Source: Candidatus Dormiibacter inghamiae | Lineage (GTDB): Bacteria > Chloroflexota > Dormibacteria > Dormibacterales > Dormibacteraceae | DNA: 64,000 bases | Assembly: GCA_016464825.1 (NCBI GenBank) | Contig: JAEKNQ010000040.1 | Span: 124,001 to 188,000 of the forward strand | Direction: 5' to 3' | Shown: piece by piece, positions 2,460 to 11,349 of the stretch | Layout of the letters: every line of letters starts with the position of its first letter | Position numbering within the stretch: position 1 is the first letter of the stretch | Made by a program: the position numbers and the translations under genes | The notes under the pieces: model-generated | The model's database searches: none | The model's input: the letters and a program-made list of their open reading frames with translations, nothing else | What the model was told of the DNA's origin: nothing

Positions 2460-2855
2460 ATGAGTGTGAAAGGACTGGATCACGTAGGCGTGGTTGTCGC
2501 TGACATGGCGGGGGCCCGGCGCTTTCTCAGCGAGGCGCTCGGTCTGCAGCTGGATCGCGAGGTGGACGCCTCAGCGATTGGACGCAGGGGCGTGTTCTAC
2601 AGGTGCGGAGCCGTCGAGATCGAGCTGATCGAGGAGCTGGACCCAGCCGCCCGTGACCGGGTTTTGGGCGGCGCCCAGGCCAAGATCGACCACCTCGCAC
2701 TGGCAGTCGACAGCCTGGCCGACACGATGGTTGCTCTCCAGGCGCGAGGCGTCGGCTTCAGCCGCGGGCCAGTTGAGATCGGCGGCCGGCAGAACGCCTG
2801 GACCGGAGAGGGCACCTCCGGTGGTGTGACCTACCAGCTCGTGGAGAAGCCTTGA
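2460..2855 (+). CDS. VOC-family protein, methylmalonyl-CoA epimerase-like
   Basis: A 131-residue vicinal-oxygen-chelate protein with two beta-alpha-beta-beta-beta modules. LDHVGVVVADM begins the first and IDHLALAVDSL the second, each contributing the metal-binding His. The layout resembles methylmalonyl-CoA epimerase and glyoxalase-like proteins; the exact reaction cannot be assigned. Its TGA overlaps the TTG start of the next gene, so it is translationally coupled to the elongation operon and probably acts in the same pathway, or on a CoA thioester made from its product. ATG 2460 is preferred over an upstream start at 2409 because the fold begins right after it and a CAGACT box precedes it. 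Confidence 0.75.
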   Translation: MSVKGLDHVGVVVADMAGARRFLSEALGLQLDREVDASAIGRRGVFYRCGAVEIELIEELDPAARDRVLGGAQAKIDHLALAVDSLADTMVALQARGVGFSRGPVEIGGRQNAWTGEGTSGGVTYQLVEKP

Positions 2856-3886
2856 GCGGAAAGACTCGCAAGATAGCCGTGATGCCGGGCGATCTGGCGG
2901 GCCAGGAGGTGACTCCTGAGGCTGTCAAGGTGCTGCAGGCTGCGGGACTGCCCTACGAGTTCCAAGAGTTCGAAGTCGGCGCCGGTCCCCTCCTGCGCGG
3001 CGAGCCCGCGATGTCGGAACAGACTTTCCGGGAGGCTGCAAGTGCTGACGCCATCCTCTTCGGCGCCATCGGCGACCCGCGCGTTCCTGACGTCGGCTAT
3101 TCGGCTCAGGTGCTGCTGCGCATTCGCTTCGAGCTGGACCTCTACGTCAACCTGCGCCCGGCCCGTCTCTTCCACGATCGCTTGAGCCCGATAAGGGCTG
3201 AGTCGAAGCGGGCGGTTGATCTGATAGTCGTGCGCGAGAACACCGAGGGTCTCTACGTGGGAGCCGGCGGCCGGATCCGGCGCGGGAGCAAGGACGAGGT
3301 GGCGATCCAGGAGGACGTCAACACCTACCGCGGCGTCACGCGCATCCTGGAGCATGCCTTCACCCTCGGTCGGCAGAAGGTCTGCATGGTGGACAAGTCG
3401 AACGCGATGAACCACGCCGGTGGTCTCTGGCAGGACTGCTGGGCCTCGCTCCAGGCCAGGCATCCCGACGTGGAGACGCGCCATCTCTACGTCGACGCCG
3501 CGGCGATGGAGCTGGTCAGGGACCCGAGCCAGTTCCAGGTCATCGTTACCGGCAATCTCTTTGGTGACATCCTGAGCGACCTCACTGCTGCCCTCGTCGG
3601 TGGCATGGGCGTCGCGCCGAGCGCGAACATCAATCCAGAGACCGGCAGCGGGCTGTTCGAACCCATCCACGGCAGCGCTCCGAGCATCGCCGGCAACGGC
3701 CTGGTCAATCCAGTGGGGGCCATCATGACCGCGTCTATGATGGTTGGTCACCTGGGTGAGGTTGAACAGGCGCAGAGGATCGCAGGCGCGGTGGAGGCGG
3801 CGGTGATAGCGGGTGAGTGCACGCGCGATCTGGGCGGGTCTCTCAGCACCAGCGAAGCCGGCGACGCCATAGTGAAGCGGCTCTAG
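2852..3886 (+). CDS. 3-isopropylmalate / homoisocitrate dehydrogenase family protein
   Basis: A 344-residue beta-decarboxylating dehydrogenase. Key landmarks are the Arg-rich substrate region LRIRFELDLYVNLRPAR, VRENTEGLYVGAGG, the metal site GNLFGDILSDL, and the NAD region GLFEPIHGSAPSIAGNG. The family oxidises and decarboxylates 3-isopropylmalate, homoisocitrate, isocitrate or tartrate. The VRENTEGLYVGAGG block resembles LeuB-type rather than ICD-type enzymes. Start is TTG overlapping the previous stop. It is followed by aconitase-like subunits and a LeuA-like synthase, so together they form a complete 2-oxoacid elongation set; leucine, lysine or another chain length are all possible. Confidence 0.85.
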   Translation: MSGKTRKIAVMPGDLAGQEVTPEAVKVLQAAGLPYEFQEFEVGAGPLLRGEPAMSEQTFREAASADAILFGAIGDPRVPDVGYSAQVLLRIRFELDLYVNLRPARLFHDRLSPIRAESKRAVDLIVVRENTEGLYVGAGGRIRRGSKDEVAIQEDVNTYRGVTRILEHAFTLGRQKVCMVDKSNAMNHAGGLWQDCWASLQARHPDVETRHLYVDAAAMELVRDPSQFQVIVTGNLFGDILSDLTAALVGGMGVAPSANINPETGSGLFEPIHGSAPSIAGNGLVNPVGAIMTASMMVGHLGEVEQAQRIAGAVEAAVIAGECTRDLGGSLSTSEAGDAIVKRL

Positions 3887-3910
3887 ATCTAGCCGGGAGG
3901 TACTTAGCCG

Positions 3911-5197
3911 ATGCCGATGACGATGACCGAGAAGATCCTGGCCCGAGCCAGCGGTCGGGAGGAGGTGGGGCCAGGCGATCTCGTGCTGGCCAAGGTCGAC
4001 TTCGCCATGGGTCACGACCTGACCATCCCGCACGCCGGCCGCATCATGCGCGAGCAGATGGGCGCCACCCGCGTCTGGGACCAGGAGCGGGTGGCTGTCG
4101 TTCAGGACCACTTCCAGCCTGCCAAGGACGTCGCCAGCGCGGGGCTCGGCCGGCTCACCCGCGAGTTCGCGCGCGAGATGGGCGTCAAGTGGTACTTCGA
4201 GGTCGGCCAGGGCGGCATCTGTCACACAGTGCTGCCCGAGCGCGGCCTCGTCCTGCCCGGCGAGCTTGTCGTCGGCGCCGACTCCCACTCCTGCACCTAC
4301 GGCGCCTTGAACAACTTTGCCGCCGGCGTTGGCAGCACGGATCTGGCCTGCGTCCTCTCCCTGGGTGAGCTCTGGTTCCGCGTCCCGGAGACGCTCCGCT
4401 TCGTCTACCACAACCGGCTTTCGGAGTGGGTGGAGGCGAAGGACCTGATCCTCCACGTCATCGGCCAGATCACAGTGGACGGGGCGCGCTCCAAGGCGAT
4501 GGAGCACTCAGGTGAGGCGATCTCTCAGATCGACATGGAGGGCCGGCTGACGATGACCAACATGGCCATCGAGGCCGGCGCGAAGAACGGCATCATCGGT
4601 TACGACGAAGTGACCGAGGCCTATCTCAGGGGCCGGGCCAAGCGGTCCTACTCGCCGGTGGCGGCCGACCCGGACGCGATCTACGAGCGGACCTTCGAGT
4701 TCGATGCGGAAGCGGTTCCGATCACGCTGGCTAAGCCGATGTCCCCCGACCACGCCGCCTCGATCGACGAGGTTGCCGGCACCAAGCTCGACCAGGTCTT
4801 CATAGGTTCCTGCACCAATTCCCGCATCGGTGACCTGCGCCGGGCGGCCGCCGTGCTGCGGGGGCGCAAGGTGGCGCCCTGGACGCGGCTCATCGTGACT
4901 CCCTCCTCGCATCAGGTCGCGCAGGCGGCCGAGAGGGAAGGACTGATCGGCGTCTTTCTGGAGGCGGGCGCCGCCTGGACGGCGTCCACCTGCGGCGCCT
5001 GTCTGGGCGGCCACCAAGGCGTGCTGGGGCCAGGCGAGGTCTGCCTCTCCACCAGCAACCGCAACTTCCCCGGCCGGATGGGGGACCCGAAGGCGCTCGT
5101 CTATCTTTCCAATCCAGTGGTGGCCGCAGCCAGCGCGGTCACGGGCGAGATAACCCACCCCAAAGAAGTGGTCGGCAAGGAGCTGGTCCTCGCATGA
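3911..5197 (+). CDS. leuC: 3-isopropylmalate / homoaconitate hydratase large subunit
   Basis: A 428-residue large subunit of the short (archaeal/HACN) isopropylmalate isomerase type. It carries VGADSHSCTYGALNNFAAG, IGSCTNSR and STCGACLGG, the segments that hold the three cysteine ligands of the [4Fe-4S] cluster. It isomerises 2-alkylmalate to 3-alkylmalate by dehydration and rehydration in the cytosol, with the small subunit encoded next. ATGA overlap (5194-5197) couples the two genes. The short type also includes homoaconitases, so a substrate other than isopropylmalate remains open. A start two codons later (ATG ACG ATG) would also fit. Confidence 0.88.
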   Translation: MPMTMTEKILARASGREEVGPGDLVLAKVDFAMGHDLTIPHAGRIMREQMGATRVWDQERVAVVQDHFQPAKDVASAGLGRLTREFAREMGVKWYFEVGQGGICHTVLPERGLVLPGELVVGADSHSCTYGALNNFAAGVGSTDLACVLSLGELWFRVPETLRFVYHNRLSEWVEAKDLILHVIGQITVDGARSKAMEHSGEAISQIDMEGRLTMTNMAIEAGAKNGIIGYDEVTEAYLRGRAKRSYSPVAADPDAIYERTFEFDAEAVPITLAKPMSPDHAASIDEVAGTKLDQVFIGSCTNSRIGDLRRAAAVLRGRKVAPWTRLIVTPSSHQVAQAAEREGLIGVFLEAGAAWTASTCGACLGGHQGVLGPGEVCLSTSNRNFPGRMGDPKALVYLSNPVVAAASAVTGEITHPKEVVGKELVLA

Positions 5198-5727
5198 CAA
5201 GCGTGCTGCCGGTGATGCGGGGCAGGTCCTGGAAGTTCGGCGCCAACGTGGACACCGATCAGATCATCCCTGCCAAGTACGCCATCTATTCGTTGGACGA
5301 GAAGAAGCTGGGAGAGCACGCGATGGAGGGGGTGCCTGGCAACGAGGATGGCTGGGCCCAGCAGGTCAGCCCGGGTGACATCCTGGTCGCAGGTTCCAAC
5401 TTCGGCTGCGGCTCCTCCCGCGAGATAGCGCCCGTCGCCATCCGCGGCGCCGGCATCGCCTGCGTGATCGCGGACTCCTTCGCCCGCATCTTCTTCCGCA
5501 ACGCCATCAACATGGGTTATCCGATCCTGCAGTCGCCGCAGGCTGCGGAGGCGATTCACTCCGGCGATGAGCTGGAGGTCGACCTGGAAGCGGGAATCAT
5601 CCGCAACTTCACCCAGGGAGACGAGTACCAGGCCGATCGCTTTCCTCCCTTCATGACCGAGCTTCTCATCCACGGCGGCCTGGTTCCCTGGGTCCGAAAG
5701 CGGCTGCAAGAGCGCACCTTCGCCTGA
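5194..5727 (+). CDS. leuD: 3-isopropylmalate / homoaconitate hydratase small subunit
   Basis: A 177-residue swivel-domain subunit. GANVDTDQIIPAKY and the loop GSNFGCGSSREIAP are diagnostic. The loop after the first motif, which sets substrate preference in this family, reads AIYSLDEKKLGEHAM and does not match the textbook leucine-type sequence that I can recall, so specificity is uncertain. It starts inside the stop of the large subunit and is 2 bases from the next gene, hence co-translated. Functions only as a heterodimer or heterotetramer with the preceding product. Confidence 0.87.
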   Translation: MTSVLPVMRGRSWKFGANVDTDQIIPAKYAIYSLDEKKLGEHAMEGVPGNEDGWAQQVSPGDILVAGSNFGCGSSREIAPVAIRGAGIACVIADSFARIFFRNAINMGYPILQSPQAAEAIHSGDELEVDLEAGIIRNFTQGDEYQADRFPPFMTELLIHGGLVPWVRKRLQERTFA

Positions 5728-5729
5728 AC

Positions 5730-7115
5730 ATGCGCATCGGGGAGTTGAAACCTGTCCAATTGCAGGAGGCATTGGCAGAACTGGTCAGGCCCCCCTCAAT
5801 GTTCGAGCACGACCTCCAGTTCGCCGACGCCTCTCAAATCCGCATCTACGATGACACGCTGCGGGACGGCGAGCAGATGCCAGGCGTCGCCTTCTCGCCC
5901 GCTGTCAAGTACGAGCTGGCCCGCGCCCTCTCGGATATCGGCGTGCACATCATGGATGTGGGATTTCCGGCAGTGTCAGCAAGTGAGCGCGAGACACTGA
6001 GCAGGATCTTGCAAGGGCGCCGCGTGGGCGAGCTGCGGTCAGACCTCGAGGTGCTCTGCATGATGCGCAGCAATCGGAGCGACATCGATGCCACCATGGA
6101 TGTGATCGATGACCTCGGCTTCCGGCGCGACGAGGTCAGCTACTTCATCTTCACTTCAGCTTCCGATTTGCACCTCAAGTACAAGCTCGGGCGCACGCTG
6201 CTCAGCCGTGAGGGCATCCCGGCCAGTGAATGGCTGGAGCTTCCCCTCTCTTTCTATCGGGACGCGAACCTGCGCCTCCTGACCGACGCCATCACCTATG
6301 CGCGAGAACGAGGAGCGGAGCTGGTCGAGTTCGGTGGGGAGGACGGCTCCCGCGCCGACCCTGAATACATAAAGCGCCTCCATCAGCAGGGGTTCGAGGC
6401 GGGTGGCGCCCGTGCCGCGACGCCGGATACTGTGGGCTGCTACTCGCCCTACGCGGTCCGCACCTACATATCCCAGTTAAAAGCGGCCGAGCCAAACCAT
6501 CCTCTTGTTGTGCATTTTCACAATGATCTGGGTCTGGGCGCCTGGAACACAGTGGTCGCGCTGGGTAGTGGCGCGGACATCTTCACCACCAGCGTGAACG
6601 GCATCGGCGAGCGAGCCGGCAACGCGCCCATGCATCAGGTAGTGCTGCAGCTCCGCTATCTCTTCGATCTGGAGCTGCCGGGCTTCAAGTACCAAAAGCT
6701 CCGCGAGCTGGCACTGACCATGGAGCGTTTGAGCGGAATTCCCGTGCAGCCGACCGAGCCGGGCATTGGCCAGAACGTCTTCAGCCACGAGTCAGGCATT
6801 CACACCGCCGGCATGCTCATCCATCCGGCAATCTATCAATTCATGCCGCCCGAGGAGCTGGGCGCGGAAATCGACTATGTCTACGGCAAGCATTCGGGCA
6901 ATCTAGTCATCGAGCACGCCCTCCGCCAGGCGCAGATCCAGCCCGAACCCGAACTCGTGACCGCTGTCATGGCGGAGGTGAAACGCGTTCGCGAGGAGCG
7001 GGCTGAAGAGCAGCAGTTCGAGCACTTCCAGCGGATATATCACGATCATCTGGCTCGAATGGGAGTCAGCCAGGCCGAGGTGGCCGAGATCGCTCGCGGG
7101 CTTCTCACTAGATGA
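5730..7115 (+). CDS. LeuA / homocitrate / citramalate synthase-like DRE-TIM metallolyase
   Basis: A 461-residue DRE-TIM barrel enzyme that condenses acetyl-CoA with a 2-oxoacid. IYDDTLRDGEQMPGV holds the metal and catalytic residues, HFHNDLGLGAWNTV the HxH metal ligands, and NGIGERAGNAP the conserved substrate loop. HESGIHTAGML and YGKHSGN follow the barrel. It lacks the C-terminal LeuA regulatory domain and has an extra roughly 35-residue N-terminal segment. It is distinct from the second synthase at 48.5 kb, which sits with ilvBN and is the more likely leucine enzyme. This copy may make homocitrate, citramalate, citrate (Re-type) or a longer homologue. Confidence 0.82.
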   Translation: MRIGELKPVQLQEALAELVRPPSMFEHDLQFADASQIRIYDDTLRDGEQMPGVAFSPAVKYELARALSDIGVHIMDVGFPAVSASERETLSRILQGRRVGELRSDLEVLCMMRSNRSDIDATMDVIDDLGFRRDEVSYFIFTSASDLHLKYKLGRTLLSREGIPASEWLELPLSFYRDANLRLLTDAITYARERGAELVEFGGEDGSRADPEYIKRLHQQGFEAGGARAATPDTVGCYSPYAVRTYISQLKAAEPNHPLVVHFHNDLGLGAWNTVVALGSGADIFTTSVNGIGERAGNAPMHQVVLQLRYLFDLELPGFKYQKLRELALTMERLSGIPVQPTEPGIGQNVFSHESGIHTAGMLIHPAIYQFMPPEELGAEIDYVYGKHSGNLVIEHALRQAQIQPEPELVTAVMAEVKRVREERAEEQQFEHFQRIYHDHLARMGVSQAEVAEIARGLLTR

Positions 7116-8116
7116 GCGAAGCGCTGGCCGGCGTCCCCCCGGCCATGCCGCCGCCTGCGCCCGAGGAGTATCTGCGCATCCATCGTTGGATGTGCCTGAC
7201 CAAGGCGCTGGACGACCGGATGCATATGCTGGTGAAGCAGGGTCGCGCTCCTTTCGTCGGCTCCTGCCGCGGACACGAGGGGATCCAGGTGGCTGCCGTC
7301 GCGGCGCTGTCGGACCGGGATTGGCTCGTGCCCCATTACCGCGGTCTGGGCAGCGCCGTCACGCGCGGCCTGACAGCTCGGGAATGGATGCTGGCGGTCT
7401 TCGCCAAAGCCGCGGATCCGCTCTCGGCAGGACGTAATATCCCCGGCGGTTGCTTCGCGCACCCCAGCCTCAACATCGCGCCCGTCTCCCAGGTGGTGGC
7501 GACCTGGATCCCCAAAGCTGTAGGCCTCGCGTACGCGACGAAGCTGCGGGGTGAGGACGCCGTGACTCTCTGCACTTTCGGGGACGGTGCGACCTCCCAG
7601 GGCGATTTCCACGAGGGCCTGAACTTCGCTGGCGTGCACCGAGTTCCAGCGGTGTTCGTCTGCGAGAACAACGCCTACGCCATCTCAGTGCCGCTGTCGC
7701 TCCAGGCCGGCAATTCGCAACTCTGGCGCCGGGCGGCAGGTTATGGCCTGGCCGGTTTGCAGGTTGACGGCGGCGACGTGCCGGCCTGTTATGAAGCGGT
7801 CCGCCAAGCGGTCGCTCTAGCACGAAGTGGCGGCGGGGCCACCCTCATCGAGGCGCTCGTGAAGCGCATCAACCCGCATACTTCGGAGGACGATCAGACG
7901 AAGTACCGGCCGGCGGGCGAAGTCGGCGAGGCTGGCCAGGCCGACCCTCTGGTCCGGTTCGAGAGCTGGCTGGAGGACCAGCGCTGGCTCACGTCGGCTC
8001 ACGCCGAGCAGGTTCATCAAGAGGCTGCACTCGACGCCGGACAAGCGGCCGACTGGGCGGAGACCCAGCCCGATCCCGATCCCGCCCAAGTTTTGAGCCA
8101 CGTTTTTCTCGGCTAA
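7112..8116 (+). CDS. 2-oxoacid dehydrogenase E1 component, alpha subunit (orphan)
   Basis: A 334-residue thiamine-diphosphate enzyme subunit. GDGATSQGDFHEGLNFA and the following CENNAYAIS form the GDG...NN cofactor motif; SCRGHEGIQVA and PHYRGLGSAVTRG are the conserved phosphate/loop regions of pyruvate and branched-chain E1 alpha. E1 alpha normally works with E1 beta, E2 and E3, but neither beta nor E2 is next to it: the operon ends here. ATGA overlap couples it to the synthase gene, suggesting oxidative decarboxylation of the elongated 2-oxoacid to an acyl-CoA. The partner subunits must be elsewhere if the protein works conventionally. Confidence 0.85.
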   Translation: MSEALAGVPPAMPPPAPEEYLRIHRWMCLTKALDDRMHMLVKQGRAPFVGSCRGHEGIQVAAVAALSDRDWLVPHYRGLGSAVTRGLTAREWMLAVFAKAADPLSAGRNIPGGCFAHPSLNIAPVSQVVATWIPKAVGLAYATKLRGEDAVTLCTFGDGATSQGDFHEGLNFAGVHRVPAVFVCENNAYAISVPLSLQAGNSQLWRRAAGYGLAGLQVDGGDVPACYEAVRQAVALARSGGGATLIEALVKRINPHTSEDDQTKYRPAGEVGEAGQADPLVRFESWLEDQRWLTSAHAEQVHQEAALDAGQAADWAETQPDPDPAQVLSHVFLG

Positions 8117-8142
8117 CCAGCTGCCGGCCCCGGTCCTGGGGC

Positions 8143-8203
8143 AATTTTCCCTGCTTGGCTTTGTCAGTGGGGCGATCGCCCGATCGCCTGAGTTAGGAAA
8201 ATT
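8143..8203. repeat. Nested inverted repeats upstream of the DWVNG peptide
   Basis: Outer arms AATTTTCC (8143-8150) and GGAAAATT (8196-8203) enclose a second perfect inverted repeat, GGCGATCG-CC-CGATCGCC (8171-8188). The pair could fold as a compound hairpin in RNA or serve as protein-binding sites. They lie in the 270-base gap between the E1 alpha gene and the peptide gene, which otherwise contains no ORF I would call. Confidence 0.5.
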
Positions 8204-8386
8204 CCGCTCGAACTCCTTCGGAACTCCCTAGGTAAAGAATGGGAATCCCAAACGAAGCTGGTCGTCTGACAATTGCTCCCAGCCATCGATTTGGCCGGGC
8301 CCGTGTGGAAACCCCCTGATTATCGCGCATAATTTGATCAGCGGCGCAATCCCGTGCCGCAGTACAGCAGAGGAAAGGAGAAATTC

Positions 8387-8518
8387 ATGACGACGAACAT
8401 CACGGACGGCGATTGGGTCAACGGACGCACCGATTGGGTCAACGCCGGCCAGGATTGGGTCAACGGACGCACCGATTGGGTCAACGGTCACGGCGATTGG
8501 GTGAACGGTGTCTTCTAG
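8387..8518 (+). CDS. 43-residue DWVNG heptapeptide-repeat protein
   Basis: Not a family I recognise. A short leader MTTNITDG is followed by five exact 7-residue units: DWVNGRT, DWVNAGQ, DWVNGRT, DWVNGHG and DWVNGVF, ending at a stop. Trp, Val and Asn are invariant; the last unit uses GTG for Val where the others use GTC, and the third positions that differ are mostly compensated by the invariant protein motif, arguing for selection on the peptide. A strong SD (AGGAAAGGAG) sits 6 bases before the ATG. It has no signal peptide or membrane segment. A perfect 11-bp hairpin follows the stop, so it looks like a single-gene transcript. A sensor kinase gene lies immediately downstream. Confidence 0.7.
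   Translation: MTTNITDGDWVNGRTDWVNAGQDWVNGRTDWVNGHGDWVNGVF
8411..8515 (+). repeat. Five 21-bp tandem repeats encoding the heptapeptides
   Basis: Units at 8411, 8432, 8453, 8474 and 8495, each beginning GATTGGGT(C/G)AACG. Units 1 and 3 are identical. The period is a multiple of three and stays in frame with the small gene throughout. Confidence 0.9.
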
Positions 8519-8530
8519 AACCGTCTGAGT

Positions 8531-8569
8531 GCGGCTTCACCTCCGGCCCAGCGGCTGGGGTGAAGCCGC
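8531..8569 (+). terminator. Hairpin after the DWVNG peptide gene
   Basis: GCGGCTTCACC (8531-8541) and GGTGAAGCCGC (8559-8569) are perfect 11-bp complements with a 17-base loop. There is no clear T-tract, so it may act as a terminator, an mRNA-stabilising end or a processing site. Confidence 0.5.
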
Positions 8570-8616
8570 CGCCCCGATTCCTACGGCACAATGAACAACG
8601 TAGTGGTCTCGGTGCC

Positions 8617-11349
8617 GTGCTAGCAGCGGAAGCGCCTAGTGGGGACGCGCCGTCGGAGCGCGTCCTACAAGAGGCCCAGAGTGGTCTCTCGAAAGCGTTG
8701 CGCACTTGTGCGACGGAGGCGGACCTGGTACAGGTGCTGAATGCCCACCTTCGCCCGCTGCTCGGTTACGACGTGTTCAACCTGCAGGTCCTGGAGAGAG
8801 AGGGCTGGTACCACAACGTTGTCATGGACTCCGGAGTCCTCCAGGACGTAGGGAGATATCGCCTCGTCGACTCGTACTTCCTGTCCCATTATCGATCCGG
8901 CAGGCCCTCTGCTGGGCATTTCGCGGATGCGCGCTTCGAGCACGGGCGCGGCAGCGGGGCGCCGAGGCGGCCCCAGACGTACATCTGGATGCCCATCCTC
9001 CACCACCAGGACCTGGTCGGCGCTGTCATCTATCAGCTGTTCGCGCGCCGGAGCGTTCCTCCCGAGGAGATGCGCTTCCTAGGCGAGGTGCACGCCCAGC
9101 TCGGCGTGCTTGTCAGCAACGCCTATCTAAACGAGTTGACGCGCAATCAGGCCCTAAGCCTGAGCGCTCTCAACGAGATCGGCTGCGCTTTGGCTGTCAC
9201 GCGCGACGAACTGGGGATCGTGGGCGCTTTGCGCGAAACGTTGGGCCCTCGGGTCCCCCTGGATCAGCTCGAACTTGTCTTACCCCAAGGATCTCGAGCC
9301 CGGGTGCTGACGGTCTCGCCGCAGACTCGCGCGGCAGAGAGGGTGATGTCCTTGCGGTCGTCCGGCCTGGCCACGGCTAGGGCGGTCCTGAGCAGTGGAC
9401 AGTCGCTGTTGGAGCCGGAGGCTAGAACTAGCAATGGCTATCCTTCCGCCGCGCTCGTGCCGGTGAAGGGTTCGACGGAGATCGAGGCTGTGCTGACCGT
9501 AAAAAGCCGTGAGCCTGATGTCTATGAGCACTCCACCCTCGCGTTCCTGGGCCAGGTCGCGGACCAAGTGGCCCTGGCTCTGAGCAATGCCCGGTCCTAT
9601 GCCGCTCTGGAAGCCAACCGCCATCACCTGGAGGTGGTCGAGGCGGTGGGACGCGAGCTGGCCACCCGGCTTGATCCGTGGATGATCGTGCGAACGCTGC
9701 AGGCCGAGCTGAGCCGCCACGTCGCGTTCGACTCGGTCGTGCTGGCGGTGCTCGAGGGCGGTCTGGAAGGCCCGGTGGCGCTCGAGGCCGGTCTCGAAGT
9801 CCCTGTGGCGCATTCTTACGCGATCGATCTGGGCAGACCGCAGCCACCGGCTACGATCCCACTCGCCGGCGCGGGGCCTGCCCGCGAAGCTTTCCGTTCC
9901 GGCCGGCCCGTGCTGGCGGACTACCCGCCCTGGACGAGCGGCGCCAACAAGGCAGGCAAGGCACTGGACGGTGCCCCTCAGGTGGCCCTCCAGGAAACGA
10001 CTGGGAGCCGCCGAGCCCGGCCCGCCCGGTCAGTCCTCTGGGTACCCGTCAGGCAGGAGGGCCGAATCCGCGCTCTACTCTCCATCCAGTCTTACCGTCA
10101 GGGCGCTTTCAGCAGCTGGCACACACATGTGCTGCAGGATGTGGCGACCCACGTGGGCCTGGCGCTCAGCAATGCGCAACTGGTGGAAGCCTTGGACCGC
10201 CAGGCGACCACCCTGGGAACCATACTGGCCAATACGCCGATCGGGGTCATGCTGGAAGGCGCCGATGGCCGCATCACCTTTGCCAACCCGGCCCTGGAGC
10301 GACTCTACGGAGTCGAGGCCAAGAGCTTGGAGGGAGCGAGGTCCGAGCGCCTGTTGGACCTGGCAGGCGGGGCCGGCAGCAGCGAGGTCGACCCCGAGAC
10401 GGGCGCCACGAGCCTCGTCCTGAAACGCAACGGGCTCAACCTCCGGATTCAGCGCCTGATGGTTCCCGCGTCGCGCGACCATCCGGCCGGCGTCCTCACC
10501 CTGCACGAGGACGTGACCAGGCAGCGCGCCGCCGAGGAGGAGAGAGACCTCATGCTGCGCGCCATCGGCCATGAGCTGCGCAGTCCGGCGGCGGCCATCC
10601 GAGGCCTCATGGCGTCCCTGTTGCAGTGGGATGAGCGCCTGCCCGCCGATGAGCGGCGCGCGGCTCTGATCGCGGCCAACGATCAGTCAGAGCGGCTGCT
10701 TCGCGTGGTGGAGGCGCAGCTCCTCATCGCAAGGCTGGAGAGGGACGGTCCCGCCGACGCGGCCGTTGAGGACGTCGACTTCTGTCCGGCTGTTCGAAGG
10801 GTAGTGCAGCTGCTGTCGCACGCCTACGAGAAGGCAGCCAGCGTCGTCGTTTGCGACGAGAAGTCCGGCTCGATGGTCCTGCGCTGTGAGCCGGCGCATC
10901 TGCAGCAGGTGCTGACGAATCTGATCGGCAATGCGCTGGAGCACGCCGCCTGCAGCCGAGTTGAAGTGCGAGCCAACCGGGCCGCCGGCTGGCCTGACTG
11001 GTGTGAGGTCACAGTCAGCGACGACGGCACCGGGTTGCCGGAGGACTTGCTGGCCGCCACCTTCAACCAGAGCCGGGCGGGCCGGCATCGGGCAATGGGC
11101 GGTCTGGGGATTGGTCTGCACCTGAGCCGACTGGTGGTCGAGCGCTCGTTCGGCGGGCAGATCTGGCTGGCACAGCACGGTCCTCGGGGAACCGCTATCA
11201 GCTTCACCGTGCCCTGCAAGAGCCCAAGCAAGGCTGAGAAGCAAGCGGTCCGGCACCAGGCCGAAAAGTCGGTCCTAGCCGGTGGCGACGGTCAGCTCAG
11301 CAGCACCCGGCGGCGAGCGGCGCAGCACTCGGAGGTAGGTGATCCCTAG
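8617..11349 (+). CDS. Multi-GAF / PAS sensor histidine kinase
   Basis: About 910 residues if it starts at the GTG at 8617. Upstream in-frame codons run through the peptide repeats and the hairpin, so an earlier start is unlikely. Three GAF-like sensor regions occupy roughly the first 540 residues, then a PAS domain (TTLGTILANTPIGVMLE, FANPALERLYGVEA), a HisKA helix with phospho-acceptor His652 in AIGHELRSPAAAI, and a HATPase domain with the N box NLIGNALEHA and the G boxes DDGTGLP and GGLGIGLHLS. No transmembrane segment is evident, so it is probably cytosolic. No response regulator is adjacent. Its 3' end overlaps the convergent MFS gene by 75 bases. Confidence 0.88.
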   Translation: MLAAEAPSGDAPSERVLQEAQSGLSKALRTCATEADLVQVLNAHLRPLLGYDVFNLQVLEREGWYHNVVMDSGVLQDVGRYRLVDSYFLSHYRSGRPSAGHFADARFEHGRGSGAPRRPQTYIWMPILHHQDLVGAVIYQLFARRSVPPEEMRFLGEVHAQLGVLVSNAYLNELTRNQALSLSALNEIGCALAVTRDELGIVGALRETLGPRVPLDQLELVLPQGSRARVLTVSPQTRAAERVMSLRSSGLATARAVLSSGQSLLEPEARTSNGYPSAALVPVKGSTEIEAVLTVKSREPDVYEHSTLAFLGQVADQVALALSNARSYAALEANRHHLEVVEAVGRELATRLDPWMIVRTLQAELSRHVAFDSVVLAVLEGGLEGPVALEAGLEVPVAHSYAIDLGRPQPPATIPLAGAGPAREAFRSGRPVLADYPPWTSGANKAGKALDGAPQVALQETTGSRRARPARSVLWVPVRQEGRIRALLSIQSYRQGAFSSWHTHVLQDVATHVGLALSNAQLVEALDRQATTLGTILANTPIGVMLEGADGRITFANPALERLYGVEAKSLEGARSERLLDLAGGAGSSEVDPETGATSLVLKRNGLNLRIQRLMVPASRDHPAGVLTLHEDVTRQRAAEEERDLMLRAIGHELRSPAAAIRGLMASLLQWDERLPADERRAALIAANDQSERLLRVVEAQLLIARLERDGPADAAVEDVDFCPAVRRVVQLLSHAYEKAASVVVCDEKSGSMVLRCEPAHLQQVLTNLIGNALEHAACSRVEVRANRAAGWPDWCEVTVSDDGTGLPEDLLAATFNQSRAGRHRAMGGLGIGLHLSRLVVERSFGGQIWLAQHGPRGTAISFTVPCKSPSKAEKQAVRHQAEKSVLAGGDGQLSSTRRRAAQHSEVGDP

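Follow-up and report, generated by a model that had tools for sequence, protein, structure and literature searches.

We analysed a 64,000-nucleotide stretch of DNA (here called the window, on G000:C33) from a 3.09-Mb genome of Candidatus Dormiibacter (class Candidatus Dormibacteria) that is 92.5% complete. On its forward strand, a small ORF encoding a peptide of tandem heptads is followed by the gene of a sensor histidine kinase (Table 1). The initial annotation had called this neighbour a GAF/PAS histidine kinase, and Pfam domains agree. The genes upstream (2852-8116) encode an isocitrate/isopropylmalate dehydrogenase-like protein, the large and small subunits of aconitase, an HMGL-type synthase and an E1 dehydrogenase, a set that resembles a 2-oxoacid chain-elongation cluster. 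On the downstream side, the kinase is followed by an MFS gene on the opposite strand.

Table 1 Features at the heptad-peptide locus, in window coordinates
Feature	Position	Strand	Basis
Low-divergence block relative to the congener, covering the peptide gene and nearly the whole kinase gene	8280..11173	.	Four-fold divergence ~2% inside, 9-26% in the neighbours tested
Promoter-like site upstream of the peptide gene, TGGAAA-16-CATAAT	8306..8333	+	Consensus match only, 9/12
5'UTR hairpin GCGGCGC/GUGCCGC	8341..8360	+	Present in MFE and centroid structures
Shine-Dalgarno (SD) region of the peptide ORF (GGAAAGGAGA)	8372..8381	+	Sequence read directly
43-aa heptad-repeat peptide, MTTNITDG(DWVN[GA]xx)5	8387..8518	+	ORF read and translated; diverged homologue in G014
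Five tandem units, each 21 bp / 7 residues	8411..8515	+	TRF and direct reading
Hairpin with perfect 11-bp arms (8531-8541/8559-8569), 12 nt past the stop codon	8531..8569	+	Sequence and folding
GAF-GAF-PAS-HisKA-HATPase sensor kinase, proposed peptide partner	8617..11349	+	Pfam; tree and homologues; start inferred

The peptide reads MTTNITDG-DWVNGRT-DWVNAGQ-DWVNGRT-DWVNGHG-DWVNGVF, with units starting at 8411, 8432, 8453, 8474 and 8495. The array was detected by TRF and keeps an exact 7-residue period without a frame break; at a lag of seven residues the peptide is identical to itself at 18 of 36 positions, and the highest value among 100,000 shuffles was 12. All five units carry DWVN, followed by G in four of them and by A in unit 2. 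The initial description of "five DWVNG heptapeptides" is therefore right about the five 7-residue units and slightly loose about the fifth residue. Among the codons for DWVN there is a single change, GTC to GTG in unit 5, and it is silent; both this silent change and a 21-bp period held in frame throughout had been correctly read before. Comparison of the peptide with solved structures, Pfam, PHROGs, plasmids and phages gave nothing significant. A single-sequence AlphaFold model showed one long helix and was distrusted, as its confidence depended on the model (mean pLDDT 91 for the best and 46 for the worst).

The SD sequence is strong, as had been claimed, and ends about 5 bases 5' of the ATG. 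The promoter-like site is unique in 8000-8800, and shuffles average 0.1 such sites. The perfect hairpin reported 3' of the ORF is real and terminator-like; it has no U-run and is therefore not a canonical intrinsic terminator. Taken with the 5'UTR hairpin, these elements suggest that the gene is transcribed alone, as a short RNA of about 235 nt. This RNA is folded slightly more stably than its shuffles (z about -2). A "270-base structured region" had also been proposed upstream, and this did not hold up: 8117-8386 is no more stably folded than its shuffled versions (z -0.8). No Rfam family matched at the peptide locus, and the only known RNA across the window is a tRNA.

The kinase probably starts near the position given in Table 1, which was chosen by homology and available codons; its reading frame is open back through the peptide repeat array. 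No membrane receptor domain was recognised in the kinase, and no response regulator adjoins it in the window.

Relatives of the peptide gene in two genera

In the congener genome G001 (locus L072), recorded as Candidatus Dormiibacter spiritus, the peptide gene is identical at 132 of 132 bases and the kinase is again adjacent. We rejected this identity as proof of selection on the peptide; it says little about selection because low synonymous divergence spans the whole peptide-kinase block. Against the congener, 12 of 515 four-fold sites in 8617-11200 are changed, and none of the 21 in the peptide; in the kinase, replacement and silent changes occur about equally often. The edges of the block, near 8279 and 11173, fall just 5' of the promoter-like site and near the end of the kinase. 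Because four-fold divergence inside the block is so far below that of the neighbouring genes, we interpret it as probably a recent recombination or transfer tract in which peptide and kinase were exchanged as one unit. The tract gives modest support to joint movement of the two genes, against which recombination may just happen to end near gene borders.

Another genus (genome G014) encodes a diverged heptad peptide, MSTKVNAGWVDDNRGWVDGSQGWVDGKRGWVD (G014:C17:8063-8161), in which the 7-residue period is kept. It has four W-V-D heptads. An SD of its own precedes the ORF, and a perfect hairpin of 12 bp follows its stop codon. The gene lies about 215 bp past the stop codon of a kinase, on its 3' side and on the opposite strand. 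This kinase is the closest among the kinase homologues in the family, with about 50% identity to the window's kinase, and a kinase tree places the two as sisters (support 0.985). The peptide match was weak alone in a single-sequence search (E = 0.035); what persuades is its period, its W-V-[ND] pattern and its position. Recurrence beside a kinase in a related genome, which the initial annotation had named as support for a system, was thus found in one independent genus.

Third codon positions vary in the core of the G014 array (GTC/GTA/GTG, GGC/GGT) and W, V and D are kept. Within the window and G014 arrays, all four core-codon changes are synonymous, for which the chance probability is about 0.001, and selection on a protein is therefore favoured. 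The divergence of the homologue preserves the reading frame, and a divergence that broke it had been named in advance as grounds for refutation.

The peptide is known from two genera and three genomes, each about 92% complete. A profile of the two peptides found no third genus among 110 genomes of the class; its matches to its own two genera are by construction. Across 400 genomes of the phylum, a search for three heptads of the form W-[VILMF]-[ND] returned the three known genomes and otherwise unrelated low-complexity arrays only (among the out-of-class matches, G380 was inspected and the others were judged low-complexity from the matched letters). The G380 match, L199 (G380:C11:1-4000), is a low-complexity array in a distant relative that translates as WMNDRWG heptads. 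Searching contigs of GTDB genomes for DW[hydrophobic]N heptads gave 44 stretches, with the present gene only in the congener; the others inspected belonged to longer proteins or to low-complexity arrays, and showed no small ORF led by a comparable SD. A crude heptad count across loci was set aside, since single arrays entered it many times.

Possible roles of the heptad peptide

We tentatively favour, with a confidence somewhat short of even, the reading that the ORF is a genuine small gene and is translated, and that its unexported W-V-[N/D]-G heptad peptide serves the neighbouring subfamily of GAF/PAS histidine kinases as a dedicated partner. One kinase subfamily is linked to the peptide in two genera and in two arrangements, and because the orientation differs between them the linkage is not explained by co-transcription or by a cis-acting leader. 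The changed orientation in G014 therefore argues for a trans-acting peptide tied to the kinase. Such a peptide would be made from its own short transcript, and its repeated W-V-[N/D]-G face would bind the GAF/PAS sensor region of the kinase, possibly after cleavage into heptapeptides or modification. Binding would set the kinase/phosphatase state of the sensor. The gene anatomy, the diverged homologue, the linkage in two genera and the low-divergence block over both genes are observed; translation, exchange of the block as a unit, binding and the direction of regulation are inferred. The chief weakness of this reading is its sample of two genera and three incomplete genomes, and the lack of a signal peptide and of a response regulator next to the kinase also counts against it.

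The initial annotation had offered three kinds of peptide, signalling, structural or modified, to which the kinase might respond. Kinase linkage in two genera partly supports this proposal; its structured-leader component fell with the folding result, and its modified-peptide component stays at the level of a motif, with no maturase recognised.

Dormibacteria are uncultured and little is known of their signalling, and small peptides are routinely missed by annotation. To our knowledge, the signals of GAF-type sensor kinases are mostly unknown. If the partner reading is true, a repeat peptide found with a single kinase subfamily in different genera, despite a change of orientation, would be a concrete ligand candidate for such a kinase.

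The peptide could also be a small repeat protein with a structural or binding function, such as an adhesive array rich in Trp or made of beta-turns, and its place beside the kinase would then reflect shared regulation or history and no direct ligand role. We regard this as a lesser possibility. Tandem W-V-[ND]-G units with Asn-Gly or Asp-Gly turns would, judging from the sequence, suit a repetitive fold, and neither a signal peptide nor receptor evidence was found for the peptide. Against it stand the pairing with one kinase subfamily in both genera, differently arranged in each, and the lack of a heptad copy elsewhere among the 110 class genomes.

A bolder form of the partner reading, which we consider unlikely, is an undescribed signalling module. 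Here the unexported tandem-heptad peptide would bind a GAF-domain histidine kinase inside the cell as a multivalent ligand, would pass between strains together with it as a two-gene cassette, and would possibly be cross-linked between Trp and Asn/Asp by an unrecognised enzyme.

Cross-linking is central to a further explanation, in which the peptide is a triceptide-type RiPP precursor. An enzyme would join each Trp to the Asn or Asp two residues on, forming three-residue cyclophanes, and the kinase may sense or regulate the product. The W-V-N of the five window units and the W-V-D of the four G014 units exactly fit the Trp(i)-Asn/Asp(i+2) cross-link motif of OscB (PMC11002830). Both peptides also match the C-terminal core region of the GrrA/OscA1 precursor family (TIGR04260) weakly (E = 6e-4 and 0.0097), and this match is order-specific: eight unit-permuted and two shuffled control peptides gave none. 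The scores, 20.4 and 16.5 bits, are nevertheless below the curated cut-off of 31. What the heptad peptide shares with these precursors, whose genes normally cluster with that of a cognate SPASM radical SAM maturase, GrrM/OscB (TIGR04261), is small size, repeated Trp-X-Asn/Asp core motifs and the profile match; it differs in that its repeats are not preceded by a leader of usual length and in having a histidine kinase as its neighbour.

GrrM had no match in the window's genome, and no maturase, protease or peptide exporter was recognised adjoining either peptide gene. The radical SAM proteins of G000, G001 and G014 are mostly housekeeping-like (MoaA, MiaB, LipA, RlmN, FbiC, SplB-like and similar, plus a few that occur in one genome only), and the three genomes share no SPASM peptide maturase; these proteins were read by eye, with only one run against NCBIfam, in genomes about 92% complete. 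Since the search of G000 gave no GrrM-like maturase and we recognised none in G001 or G014, we do not claim RiPP membership. The explanation is decidedly unlikely, the relation to triceptides being "works like" at best and the cyclophane hypothetical. If cross-linked, the heptad peptide would point to a new maturase.

It is improbable that the locus is a nucleic-acid element with an incidental ORF, in which proteins would bind the 21-bp direct repeats as iterons or the RNA itself would be active. The period equals two helical turns, and the slight excess of folding in the transcript would suit an active RNA. Among 92 stretches with W-[hydrophobic]-[ND] heptads in viral contigs, most of the 80 inspected were low-complexity or iteron-like, and eight contigs (L214, L230, L236, L237, L256, L270, L274 and L275) carry GGTGGGTRAATTAC direct repeats at 20-21-bp spacing that translate as W-V-N-Y heptads. 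These repeats resemble replication-origin iterons and show how a heptad ORF can be spurious. The peptide gene departs from this pattern: third positions vary in G014 while W, V and D are kept, which is unexpected of a DNA site, and SD, ATG and stop codon frame the array exactly in both copies. The lack of an Rfam match also counts against an element of this kind, and the core 13-mer of the array, allowing two mismatches, occurs only once more in the window outside the array.

A Trp-rich leader peptide that controls the downstream kinase by attenuation or translational coupling would account for the five Trp codons of so short an ORF and for the hairpin and same-strand gene that come after it. 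No Trp-related target was found, and we reject this extremely improbable reading because the G014 gene lies 3' of the kinase on the opposite strand, where it cannot be a cis-leader, and the 5' co-transcribed position is not kept in all homologues.

Comparison with peptide-sensor pairs

Gram-positive bacteria have pairs of peptide pheromones and histidine kinases, such as ComC-ComD, as well as cytosolic heptapeptide signals, such as NprX and PapR. The heptad peptide shares with these a small gene genetically linked to a sensor, and its heptapeptide unit recalls the size of re-imported signals. It differs from them in being tandemly repeated and in lacking a signal peptide, and its kinase has neither a recognised membrane receptor domain nor an adjacent response regulator in the window. 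As for the features of a secreted pheromone, linkage to a histidine kinase is present in G000/G001 and in G014, whereas a Sec or double-Gly export signal is not: reading of the two sequences (MTTNITDG... in the window and MSTKVNAG... in G014) revealed no hydrophobic segment and no GG leader.

A different set of small peptides was observed near a longer sister kinase in 21 genomes of the same family (L109-L130, e.g. L112:792-911 and L125:790-906). These ORFs of 30-47 aa start with MTW, carry a Sec-like signal sequence and end in a short tail that is often Trp/Asp-rich (e.g. MTWRLKVQGIVFTLVVLGALALASGAQWVEAFAGVDWGW), and may encode a secreted peptide signal. Like the heptad peptide, they are short Trp/Asp-containing peptide genes near a homologous GAF kinase. 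They differ from it in their Sec-type signal and lack of heptads, and have no detectable homology to it; where examined, the MTW ORF is convergent with a response regulator gene, which in turn diverges from the kinase gene.
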